From Cokeromyces recurvatus (lineage: Eukaryota > Mucoromycota > Mucoromycetes > Mucorales > Mucoraceae), in assembly GCF_025118155.1 (NCBI RefSeq), contig NW_026251411.1:1-64000 (forward strand): DNA of 64,000 nt. Direction: 5' to 3'. The notes beneath the pieces were generated by a model. That model ran no database searches. It saw nothing but the letters and a program-made list of their open reading frames with translations, and had not been told where the DNA came from. This document shows positions 8,031-63,854 of this stretch, one piece after another; position 1 is the stretch's first letter; each line of letters begins with the position of its first letter. The position numbers and the translations under genes are program-made.

Positions 8031-8554
8031 ATGCCTGAAATTATTAAAGAAGGTTATCTCTCTTTGAAAGAAGAAGGTTTAAGGGCTTGGATCTGGTCTA
8101 AAAGATATTGTGTATTAAGAGATCAATCTTTAACTTTTCATCGTAATGAGGTATATTTATTTGAATTTCATCATGACTTATTATATTCATAACTTCTTTA
8201 GGCTGGACAATGTATTGGCTTAATATTTTTAAAAGAAATTGGTTCTGTAACGAGAATAGACCTTAAACCTTATTGCTTTGAGATATCTGCAAAAGACAAA
8301 ACATATTATATTGCTTGTAAAAGTGATGAAGAACTTTATAGTTGGATGGATGAAATTTACAATGTAAGTCCTTTTTATTTTTATTCTGTTTTATTTTAAA
8401 AATAATAATAACTATCATTAAAATAGAGATCATCTGTTGGAACTTCAAGTCCAACTAATTTCATTCATAATGTTCATGTTGGTTTTGATCCAATTACAGG
8501 CGCTTTCACAGTAAGATATTTTACCAACAATAATAAGAAAAGAAAAAAAATAAT

Positions 8555-8595
<41 letters not shown>

Positions 8596-10641
8596 AGGGA
8601 CTACCCGATCAATGGACTCGTTTGTTAAAAGGTTCAGCCATTACAGCTGAAGATGCAGCAAAGAATCCTCAAGCAGTTTTAGATGTACTAGAGTTTTACG
8701 CTGAACAAACAAAACGTGAAGAAGAAGAATATGGTACATCTCAACTTCAGGGCGCTGTTGAACGCATGAGTGGTTTGGGATGGGCAAAGATGATGCAAGA
8801 AAACTCACTTCAACAAACAAGTCAAAAGAAACCCATTCCTAATGTAAAATTACCTTCCAAAAATATACCTCCTAGACCTGCTCCTCCTCCCCCTTCTGCA
8901 CTTCAAGCCCTTTCTGAATTAAAAATACAAGTAAGTTTCCCATGTAAAGAAATAAATGTATACAAACTAATAGTCAATTAGGAACAACAAACACAATTAC
9001 CACCGCTGCCAAGACCTACACATAAATTAAATATGATTACACCTGCTTCACCAGTAAGTATATTATATTATATTATATTATATTATATTATATTATATTA
9101 TATTATATTATATTGCATATAATAATATAATAATATAATATAATTATAACTAATTATAATATAAATTATTAGGGTAATTACGCTTTACCATCTAGAGATC
9201 AAAATGAAAGTCCGATTCCCACTGGTAAATTAGTTAAAGATATTCACCTAGAAAAAGTTTTGGGTTCAGAAAGGGTTCCAATTCGTACAAGTAGTGTCGA
9301 TTATTATCAACAACAGGTATCCAGAGAAAAAGAACAACAGCAATTAGAAAGTGAACGTGAAAGAGAAAGAGAGCGCTTATATAAAGAAAGAGAAAGAGAA
9401 AAGGCAGCTGCTCAAGTATCGTCCAAGAAGAAGGTTGAACAAAGAATTAGTACAATGACTGAAGCTCAAATTATGGAAAAACTTCGTAAGTTATCTACGT
9501 ATATAGTTGCTTGTATATGTATCTATTTATATTGATTTCACCTCTCCCTTTCATATATGTATATGCATATATAGGTTCTGTTGTTTCTAAAGGTGATCCT
9601 AATGAATGCTATAAAAAAATTAAAAGAGTGGGACAAGGGTACGAAAAAAAAAGTAATTTCATATATGTGATTTGAATGCTTATATGTACCTTTTCGTTAA
9701 TTAGTGCATCTGGTTCTGTTTATGTTGCAAACTCTCTTGCTACAAATACAAAAGTGGCAGTTAAACAAATGGATTTGGCAAATCAACCTCGTAAAGAACT
9801 TATTGTTAACGAAATCTTGGTGATGAAGGAATCACAACATCCCAATATTGTTAATTTCCTTGATGCTTTCCTTATTGGAAGCTCTGATTTATGGGTAGTA
9901 ATGGAATATATGGAAGGTGGCGCTTTAACAGATGTCATTGATAACAATAGTAAAATGACTGAACAGCAAATCTCAACCGTATGTCTTGAAACTGTTGCAG
10001 GTCTTCATCATTTACATTCACAAAATATTATTCATAGAGATATCAAGTCCGATAATATCTTACTTAATTCTCAGGGACATGTTAAAATTAGTGACTTTGG
10101 TTTCTGTGCAAAATTAACAGATCAAAAGAGAAAACGTGCAACTATGGTAGGAACACCATATTGGGTAAGTTTGTTTCCATCTTAATTATATACTACAATT
10201 GAAATAACTCGTTATTATCATAGATGGCACCCGAGGTAGTAAAGCAAAAAGAATATGGTGCTAAAGTGGATATTTGGTCACTTGGTATTATGGCTATTGA
10301 AATGATCGAGAATGAACCACCTTATCTTGATGAAGAGCCATTAAAGGCCCTATATCTTATCGCAACAAATGGTACTCCAACATTGAAAAACCCTGAAAGA
10401 TTATCAAATGAGTTGAAATCCTTTTTAGCTGTATGTCTTTGCGTTGATGTCAGATCTCGAGCAACTTCTTTAGAATTAATGAATGTAAGTTTATTATTAT
10501 TCTTTCTTTCTTTTTTTTTTTCTTGGTTTTGCTTATATTTATTTTCATTCTTTTTTTTTTTAGCATGAGTTTCTTAAAAAGGCTGGTCCTTTAGAAATTT
10601 TGGCGCCTTTACTGAAATTCAGAACAAAAACAAAGATCTAA
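8031..10641 (+). CDS. CLA4: p21-activated kinase, PH-CRIB-kinase architecture (Cla4 type)
   Basis: This is a Rho/Cdc42-activated Ser/Thr kinase for polarity, septin assembly and morphogenesis. A PH domain comes first ([39 protein letters not shown]). Next is a CRIB domain, with [13 protein letters not shown] and [10 protein letters not shown], then a proline-rich linker ([11 protein letters not shown]) and a long Arg/Glu coiled-coil-like stretch. The C-terminal kinase shows [34 protein letters not shown] and GTPYWMAPEVV, so all catalytic residues are present. ATG 8031 was chosen because [10 protein letters not shown] is the PH start; the upstream in-frame ATG at 7950 would add a Leu/Phe-rich stretch atypical of the family. 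Several GT-AG introns are present; one carries an ATATT pentamer array and one ends in a 34-T tract. The intron within the CRIB falls exactly before GLP. The gene ends KTKI at TAA 10639. Confidence 0.92.
8558..8591 (+). repeat. Poly-T tract before an acceptor in the Cla4-type gene
   Basis: A run of 34 T precedes the TAAATAG acceptor of the intron that splits the CRIB domain. It is probably length-variable, and copy number may be misread in assemblies. Confidence 0.8.
9059..9114 (+). repeat. TATTA pentanucleotide microsatellite
   Basis: About eleven perfect TATTA units lie inside an intron of the Cla4-type kinase gene and are followed by a degenerate AATAT field. It is non-coding and should be spliced out. 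Confidence 0.9.
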
Positions 10642-61340: not shown

Positions 61341-63854
61341 ATGGGCAATACTATAGCAACGCCCAGTAGCCATGGCAATTATCAGTCAAGTAGACGACCA
61401 TCTCAAAAACCATCATCTACAAGGAGTTTACGTAAAATGACTTCATCATCTACCTTATCTAGTATAAAATTATATAAACAAAACAATAAGTCTGAAACCT
61501 CTCTATCCTCTAAAATGTCGACAAAGTCTTCGAATCGTCATCCATCTACTTTTGGTGAGAAAATATTGGACATTAGTAAACCAACTAAATTTGAACATGG
61601 CATTCATGTAGAATATAATAGAGATAGTGGGAAATACATGGTAAGCTAGTAACCATGGATAAGATCTTCATTTTTGTAATATATATATACATATATGTGT
61701 ATACATATATATATTATATACATATAAATATATATATTTATATATGCATATAGGGATTACCCGATGTATGGCAATCAAATTTACCAAGCGATGATATATT
61801 AGATACACATTACGTTACTCCTCATCTTGTACCCTCACCAGTTAAGCCAGAATGTAAAAGTATTCCCCTCCCTTTAAAGCAATGTTTAAGAAATGAACAA
61901 GGAATGTCTCCTTATTTTTGTTTTGTTTTTGTAATTCATTTTTTTTCTTTTTGTATCTATGTAAAAAAAAAAAAAGAAAAGAAAAAAAAAGAAAATATGA
62001 ATAGAAAAAAAAAAGTGAATATTATATTTCTATGTTCTTAAAATAAGAGACATTTCTTGTTCATTATATGTATACATATATTTATAAAGACAACTTAAAA
62101 CTCATTAATGATCTTTAATAGGTGATTCAGATGCATCACAGAAAACGCCTACATTAATTGGAAAACCATACAATGTACAACACAACATTCATGTCCAAGT
62201 GGGTAAATATGGTTTCAAAGGTTTACCACTTGAATGGCAAAAGATTTTATTAGCTTCAGGTGTGCCTGAAGAAGTCGTTCAGAATAACCGGAAAACAGTT
62301 GAGAATTTGATGCATCATATTCGAATGCCAGATTCACTTCAGTCAGATAATAAACAGCAGCTGTCATCTTCTACAACTTCATCTTCTTCTAATCATACCA
62401 TAGTAGAAGAAGAAGAAGAAGGAGAAGAAGAAGACAGAGACAGAGAGTTTAAAGAAAAGAAGGAAATGACGTTACCAATAGGTTATGCACCTCCTTCAAG
62501 AGCAAGATCATCTAAATTATTACATTTATCTTTATTTAAATCCTCTATTGATATACCACCCCTTCCTGAAATAGACGATTCTTCACTTTTTATGAATTCC
62601 GTTAGTCATACAAGCTCTGATTCACATTTAGCATTAAATTCGAATTTTATTGGTAAGCAGTAGTGAAGTATAGTAAATAAATGATAAGTAGAGATAAGGA
62701 GTGAAGATTTGATATCTTCATTGCTTAACTCCCGCACTTACACTCACACTCACATTCACATATTAGATGACTTATTGGATGCAGCAGACCCTAATACATT
62801 ATATACCGACTTTATATTGATAGCAGAAGGTGAATCAGGACCCATGTATGCCGCTAAACATACCAGTACAAAACGCATTGTTGCCATCAAAAAGATTCCC
62901 CACAAGGCAGAAGAGAAACTAAGCAAGATAAGAAACGAGTTGACAACGATGAAGATGAGTCGACATCCGAATGTGGTTGAGTTTATTGCCTGTTATACCA
63001 CCCCAGAAGAAATTTGGGTTGTGATGGAATGCATGGATGTTTCTTTGGCTGATATTATTTCGATTGAACCATTACAACCTCGTATGCGTGAGGATCAAAT
63101 TGCACGTGTGGCAAGAGATATCTTGAGAGCTCTCTGTCGAATTCATCGACTCAATCGTATACACCGAGATATTCGAAGTGATAACATCTTGTTAAATTTA
63201 CGGGGCGAAATTAAGCTAGGTAAATACATACATACATACATAAAAAAAAATCTTTCATCCTCCTTTTCTTACTCTTACTATCTCATAGCTGATTTTGGAC
63301 ATTGTGCTCAGCTTTCAAAATCTCAACCTGAACGTAATTCAATTGTGGGTACACCTTATTGGATGGCACCAGAAGTGATTAAAGGATTAAACTATAATGC
63401 AAAAATCGATATTTGGAGTTTAGGAGTGGTTTTAATAGAGATGGCAGAAGGCAATCCACCTTATGTAGAATACCCGCCTTTAAGAGTAAAATAGATATAT
63501 ATATATAAAGAGAGAGAGAGAATGCATTATTATGTTCATTTTACTTACTTTTTTTGTATCTATTTTATATAGGCTTTATTTTTAATTGTATCAAATGGTT
63601 TACCTCCATTAAAAGAACCAGATAGATGGTCAGAACCATTTAAAGATTTTTTGAAATTATGTACGATAGAGAATCCAGAAGAAAGGCCAGATGCAGAAAC
63701 GTTATTAAAGCATCATTTTCTACGTTCTGTGGGTACAGCAGAAGATATAATTGAACTAATTGAAGAAACACGTAGATTAGAAATGTTACAACAAGAAGAA
63801 GAAGAAGAAGATGTGATAGAGGAAGAAGAGAGTACAGAAAAAGGATGTTCATAA
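61341..63854 (+). CDS. p21-activated kinase with two CRIB domains
   Basis: This Ste20/PAK-family kinase of about 620 residues has six exons: 61341-61640, 61754-61853, 62122-62652, 62767-63219, 63289-63485 and 63573-63854. MGNTIATPSS fits an N-myristoylation consensus. The first CRIB is at about residues 78-112 (ISKPTKFEHGIHVEYN, then GLPDVWQSNL). The second is at about 146-180 (IGKPYNVQHNIHVQV, then GLPLEWQKIL). A Ser-rich, Glu-rich linker follows. The kinase shows EGESGPMYAA, AIKKIP, IHRDIRSDNILL, ADFGHC and GTPYWMAPEVI; the usual catalytic-loop Lys is Arg. No PH domain is present, unlike the Cla4-type gene at 8031. The tail is acidic (EEEEEEDVIEEEE). Kinase identity is certain; which yeast PAK it corresponds to (Ste20 or Skm1) is not. 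Confidence 0.9.

Follow-up and report, generated by a model that had tools for sequence, protein, structure and literature searches.

A conserved fungal PAK-related kinase with two unlike CRIB modules and an N-terminal myristoylation motif

Among the effectors through which Cdc42 and Rac govern cell polarity, PAKs hold a central place, and human PAK1 and PAK4 carry one CRIB each. At the end of the Cokeromyces recurvatus window (the whole 64,000-nucleotide stretch analysed here, C18:1-64000 in a genome of 28.05 Mb) lies a gene for a PAK-type kinase with two, which raises the question of whether both modules are real, where the second came from and what they would do for the kinase. From the N-terminal to the C-terminal end, the 620-residue protein consists of an N-myristoylation motif, a basic Ser-rich region, CRIB1, an LPSDD...LVPSP segment, CRIB2 with a tail, a linker and a Ser/Thr kinase domain. 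The reading we lean towards, with somewhat more confidence than doubt, is that the gene belongs to a separate PAK-related lineage within early-diverging fungi whose product would be membrane-anchored, with CRIB1 docking GTP-bound Cdc42 or Rac and CRIB2 switching the kinase on. Sequence shows how the protein is laid out, how far that layout is conserved, which signature residues mark it and where its kinase falls in the tree, and it is the assignment of docking to CRIB1 and of switching to CRIB2 that we infer.

The gene occupies positions 61341-63854 of the forward strand, well past the end at 62300 given in the earlier note, and is divided into six exons with joins predicted from the DNA (Table 1). 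In this splice model the coding sequence is 1863 nt long without an internal stop, all introns are GT-AG, and the open reading frame of exon 1 starts directly 3' of an in-frame stop. Without removal of intron 1, the frame of CRIB1 runs into a stop after two codons, and the module is readable only when spliced. The public NCBI model of the locus (P0001) also contains both CRIBs and differs from the present model at the end of exon 2 and in exon 3; the present model outscores it against six of six orthologues, for example with 845 vs 800 bits for P0005 and 866 vs 809 for P0006. An inverted repeat of 26 nt (85%) at 61892-61917 / 62040-62065 in intron 2 lies near the alternative exon 2 end of the public model.

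Table 1 Features of the dual-CRIB kinase gene in window coordinates.
Feature	Position	Strand	Residues	Content or basis
Exon 1	61341..61640	+	1-100	N-myristoylation motif, basic Ser-rich region, CRIB1 core; splice model
N-myristoylation motif MGNTIAT	61341..61361	+	codons 1-7	pattern match
CRIB1 core ISKPTKFEHGIHV	61572..61610	+	78-90	Pfam PBD match
Intron 1	61641..61753	+		phase 0; cuts CRIB1 between KYM and GLPDVW
Exon 2	61754..61853	+	101-133 plus base 1 of codon 134	splice model
GLPDVW of CRIB1	61754..61771	+	101-106	
Post-CRIB1 motif NLPSDDILDTHYVTPHLVPSP	61778..61840	+	109-129	mean majority fraction 0.74, 74 proteins
Intron 2	61854..62121	+		268 nt; carries inverted repeat
Exon 3	62122..62652	+		CRIB2, autoinhibitory-like tail, acidic/Ser linker, LPIGYAPPSRARSS motif; splice model
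CRIB2 core IGKPYNVQHNIHV	62157..62195	+	146-158	own-genome PBD match 62157-62300
GLPLEW of CRIB2	62220..62237	+	167-172	
Autoinhibitory-domain-like helices after CRIB2	62238..62327	+	173-202	PBD profile, AF2
Linker motif LPIGYAPPSRARSSKL	62472..62519	+	251-266	mean majority fraction 0.54
Exon 4	62767..63219	+		kinase N-lobe, catalytic loop; splice model
Kinase domain	62802..63728	+	323-579	span includes introns 63220-63288 and 63486-63572
Catalytic loop HRDIRSDN	63162..63185	+	443-450	Arg447 at the Lys position of PAKs
Exon 5	63289..63485	+		DFG 63291-63299, activation-loop Ser479 63339-63341, APE
Exon 6	63573..63854	+		C-lobe, C-terminal helix, acidic tail, stop; splice model

As wholes, CRIB1 spans residues 78-106 and CRIB2 residues 146-172, within a few residues of the ranges first proposed. 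Taken alone, each exceeds the Pfam PBD cut-off of 21.3 bits, CRIB1 with 37.9 bits (E 2.3e-9, residues 77-115) and CRIB2 with 33.6 bits (E 4.8e-8), and both PBD matches lie N-terminal to the Pkinase match, as expected from the earlier description of a PAK-type kinase with two CRIBs. The pattern I[SG]xPxxxxHxxHV has two matches in the six frames of the window vs none in 50 two-base-block shuffles. An artefact or chance as the source of the two CRIBs is rejected, since each passes Pfam separately, both stand in the public gene model and both are conserved as described below. The best PDB matches of CRIB1 are PAK4 and PAK6, and an NCBIfam scan of the protein gave kinase matches only, far below cut-off.

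The two modules are, as judged from profile coverage and model prediction, unequal. The 59-position PBD profile is covered from 1 to 39 by CRIB1 and from 2 to 51 by CRIB2. In the AF2 model of P0001, CRIB2 forms a hairpin with following helices (helix blocks pLDDT 69-73), and CRIB1 forms a hairpin only, at low confidence (block means 36-53). The segment 3' of CRIB1 is the conserved LPSDDILDTHYVTPHLVPSP, unlike the tail after CRIB2, and its motif NLPSDDILDTHYVTPHLVPSP occupies the position of the autoinhibitory helices in a PAK. The description of two complete CRIB/PBD modules is thus right for the cores, which are both complete, and too broad for the longer PBD/autoinhibitory tail, which is found on CRIB2 alone, leaving CRIB1 without one.

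In protein searches, the dual-CRIB layout was found in Mucorales, Umbelopsis, Jimgerdemannia (Endogonales), mortierellids, Glomeromycota and Calcarisporiella, the lineages of four species being looked up and the remainder assigned by the names of the source species. Both CRIBs are present by strict pattern in 83 of 91 relatives, which makes the arrangement that of a conserved family and no local event. Among the eight that fail the pattern, Pfam detects two PBD stretches in P0182, and the remaining seven look truncated or mis-spliced when their sequences are inspected by eye. The first search yielded 82 of 2199 candidates. In the second (best 120 of 398 matches; 7979 scored), scores descend from 484 bits in Glomeromycota to 421 for yeast Ste20, with the partial Glomeromycota members P0097 and P0121 below the yeast score. 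A search carried to E 10 yielded 67 among 183 candidates, and each comes from the same fungi or from unnamed collections (P0184, discussed below, among the latter). Candidates had to share five-residue words with the query, and absence outside these fungi is thus provisional.

Conservation was read from an alignment (A2) of 74 family rows and 4 yeast Ste20 rows, which omits 18 of the 92 family proteins (near copies, partial models, later finds, P0015 and others). None of the 74 family rows departs from the core Pro, the two core His or the Trp in either CRIB, and the Ile and Val are retained in 72 rows or more. Mean conservation is highest in CRIB1 (0.88, the best block), followed by the CRIB2 core (0.75), the kinase (0.71) and the post-CRIB2 tail (0.48). 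That a single CRIB functions, with the other a remnant that has decayed or is optional in splicing, is hardly credible. An intron does interrupt CRIB1, and two public models have odd joins, P0080 being without the CRIB2 core and P0081 without the CRIB1 stretch from HGIH to GLPDVW; however, the invariant residues are held in both modules across the alignment, and the flanking residues kept in P0080 and P0081 suggest wrong splice calls.

The N-terminal end carries a candidate lipid-anchor signal. The call of MGNTIAT follows the pattern G-{EDRKHPFYW}-x-x-[STAGCN]-{P}, which we take to be the PROSITE form, and such a motif is present in 51 of 92 family proteins and in none of 92 other proteins that these searches brought up. 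Among the family models, 38 are without an MG start, many of which begin within conserved N-terminal motifs and look 5'-truncated, and three with an MG start fail the pattern. In the 49 rows of A2 that begin with MG, the net N-terminal charge runs from +3 to +11, with a median of +9. In P0083, P0050 and P0042, which have no MG start, LGNQVST, LGSQVSS or LGNSLSN appears near the N-terminus, which would fit a wrong join of an upstream exon to the myristoylation motif.

In the kinase domain, all 74 family rows of A2 have Arg in place of the catalytic-loop Lys, which all 4 yeast Ste20 rows keep; the Arg is found in all 89 family proteins having the segment, which is absent in 3 of the 92. At the position of PAK1 Thr423, all 72 ungapped family rows have Ser, the residue of group II PAKs, and not the Thr of group I. 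The PDB sequence scores of the kinase tie between MST1 (238.2 bits) and PAK1 (237.8). No Pfam match to a PH domain was obtained at E 0.1, unlike for the Cla4-type PAK of the window.

Of 73 family rows, 38 have the DFG glycine and 35 have S, R, A, V or T in its place, with at least nine changes between G and non-G on a quick tree, so that kinase activity may differ among relatives. Together with the universal catalytic-loop Arg and a CRIB1 core conserved above the kinase, this drift is what would be expected if the protein were mainly a membrane-bound GTPase scaffold, its kinase weak or drifting towards a pseudokinase and its catalysis of little weight. We consider this decidedly unlikely, because the VAIK Lys (72/73), the HRD Asp (74/74), the DFG Asp (73/73), and the activation-loop Ser and APE Glu (72/72 ungapped rows each) are retained, and the C. 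recurvatus protein itself has an intact DFG. Src-family tyrosine kinases, moreover, have Arg at the same catalytic-loop position and are active.

The final kinase tree, which has long branches and one outgroup row and omits four outgroup rows, P0063 and P0184 (long branches) present in the first tree, places the dual-CRIB family in one clade (99/97) outside a separate clade of Ste20, Cla4, human PAK1 and PAK4 (98/93). In the first tree, the branch parting five MST/GCK outgroup rows from 35 PAK-type rows has a support of 100/96. With groups named after the first tree had been seen, AU p values for joining the family to PAK4, to the Cla4-type and to the Ste20-type are 0.0106, 0.041 and 0.0485. 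By these modest values a derived Cla4-, Ste20- or PAK4-type kinase is disfavoured, the Ste20 grouping weakly, and the family appears to form a branch of its own among the PAK kinases.

The earlier note attributed the second CRIB to duplication within the gene, which is not supported as stated. Over 20 core positions, CRIB1 and CRIB2 are 54% identical, CRIB1 is 56% identical to PAK1 and 55% to the Cla4-type, and CRIB2 is 57-59% identical to the Ste20-type; the two are thus no closer to each other than either is to single CRIBs, and a recent in-gene duplication finds no support. The likeness of CRIB1 and CRIB2 within one protein (0.545) is no greater than that between proteins (0.542), and any duplication would therefore predate the split of these phyla. 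On an ancient duplication the CRIB comparison is neutral, speaking neither for nor against it. Both family consensus CRIBs begin with I-G-K-P, and that G or K occurs in 0 of 14 single CRIBs, which may be taken as a weak hint of an old duplication; against it, the K is missing from several CRIB2s of other orders, and the CRIB1 of the window begins with ISKP.

Elsewhere in the genome, seven distinct PAK loci (6-7 kb examined per locus) each show one CRIB core with GxPxxW and an activation-loop Thr, and the dual-CRIB arrangement is, as the earlier note held, unusual. An intron at the site of intron 1 in CRIB1 is also found in three Cla4-type PAK CRIBs, and four distinct Ste20-type CRIBs are uninterrupted. 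When a second dual-CRIB gene was sought with P0052, the best among 84 listed matches was the window gene, which was also the sole match among those listed for residues 1-117 of the query, the N-terminal CRIB part. A PBD search of the genome revealed no other CRIB pair; intron-split CRIBs can escape it, as CRIB1 itself did. Pieces of a PAK-like kinase lie at C56:681816-682735.

A Cla4-type PAK lies in the window at 8031-10641 (+), about 51 kb upstream of the dual-CRIB gene (PH 56.9, PBD 80.1 bits), and a Ste20-type PAK on the same contig at C18:195585. Positions 1-5520 of L009 (C18:193500-199019) and L010 (C27) share at least 5520 bases at 100% identity, holding a Ste20-type PAK, which reflects either a recent segmental duplication or an assembly duplication. 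The locus L016 (C21:117982-118137) has the CRIB IGMPADFRHVGHIG in a 404-aa open frame and appears WASP-like by eye.

As to GTPases, a single place in the genome matches human Cdc42 at 74% identity over residues 55-191, and pieces of the Rho type lie on 8 further contigs. Such a repertoire would allow the two CRIBs to read different GTPases, for example Rac by CRIB1 and Cdc42 by CRIB2, and the protein would then act as an AND gate and not as an avidity device. The modules are consistently unlike, CRIB1 being nearer the PAK1/Cla4-type and CRIB2 nearer the Ste20-type; however, a preference for Cdc42 or Rac is rarely predictable from CRIB sequence alone, and we rate this alternative as unlikely.

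In the membrane-anchored docking and switching arrangement that we favour, the lipid and the basic N-terminus would keep the protein at the plasma membrane. CRIB1, without an autoinhibitory tail, would dock GTP-bound Cdc42 or Rac, and CRIB2, with a tail resembling the PAK autoinhibitory domain, would free the kinase once a second GTPase binds. Requiring two GTPases and the membrane would give a steep kinase response to dense patches of active GTPase, as at growing tips and buds, and a kinase with two CRIBs could retain active GTPase within such patches. The earlier suggestion of one binding and one autoinhibitory CRIB fits this anatomy, in which the tail is on CRIB2 only, and the roles themselves are put forward as probable assignments. 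The tail is seemingly lost, by eye, in the second-type paralogues P0060 and P0080, and with such erosion the switch role of CRIB2 cannot hold for all members. The fungi with this kinase include ones with fast coenocytic tip growth and arbuscular mycorrhizal fungi. A conserved two-CRIB PAK with a lipid-anchor motif offers a natural test of how effector avidity shapes GTPase patches, and its catalytic-loop Arg and drifting DFG glycine a test of how far a PAK active site can change.

Compared with known kinases, the fungal Ste20-type PAKs (yeast Ste20; Cokeromyces L009/L010, L011, L012 and L013) likewise have a CRIB N-terminal to a PAK-type kinase, and differ in the one CRIB seen and in an activation-loop Thr. 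The Cla4-type PAKs (the window copy, L014 and L015) share the CRIB-kinase order and the CRIB intron site of CRIB1, and differ in the one CRIB seen and in a PH domain, which is Pfam-scored for the window copy. Human group I PAK1 differs in its activation-loop Thr and catalytic-loop Lys, whereas group II PAK4 resembles the dual-CRIB protein in its activation-loop Ser (RRKSLVGTPYW) and departs from it in the catalytic loop HRDIKSDS. The metagenomic P0184 (449 aa, on a 1466-base contig) combines two PBD stretches with a PAK-type kinase; unlike the dual-CRIB family, it has the canonical catalytic loop HRDIKSDN and GG in the MEGGAL segment, and in the first tree its long branch (82/41) falls outside the two PAK clades, which suggests two-CRIB kinases in at least one other lineage.

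Two CRIBs in one protein are already known. In the excerpts of the sources, Dictyostelium GnrC has two consecutive CRIBs at its N-terminus (PMC8847673), coronin 7 has one in each WD-repeat domain, with GDP-loaded Rac reportedly preferred (PMC4585930), and phospholipase D2 (PLD2) has two according to a title in reference lists; these resemble the C. recurvatus protein in carrying two CRIBs per chain, but as there described none is a kinase. The view that known PAKs have a single CRIB agrees with the PAKs seen here, and among the matches listed from the open literature no natural two-CRIB kinase was found. An excerpt of PMC10234108 describes two CRIB-like pieces cloned from each of CDC42EP1 and Bem3, and two WASp CRIBs in tandem that were pre-localised at the plasma membrane. 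In PMC12048676, Cdc42 was enriched by a synthetic tandem CRIB, but not by a single CRIB, at the membrane sites where Cdc42 is active, and N-WASP with its PIP2-binding basic stretch gave the same enrichment. This construct (2xwCRIB) shares the tandem CRIBs of the C. recurvatus protein but is, in that account, an engineered WASP pair without a kinase or lipid anchor. Tentatively, and with doubt the larger share, the dual-CRIB family may be regarded as a third deep fungal PAK class outside the clade of Ste20, Cla4 and animal PAKs, retained across Mucoromycota, Glomeromycota, mortierellids and Calcarisporiella. In that view the kinase, with its Src-like catalytic-loop Arg, would be myristoylated, would detect the coincidence of two GTPases and would be nature's version of the tandem CRIB engineered to demonstrate avidity-driven patterning of Cdc42.
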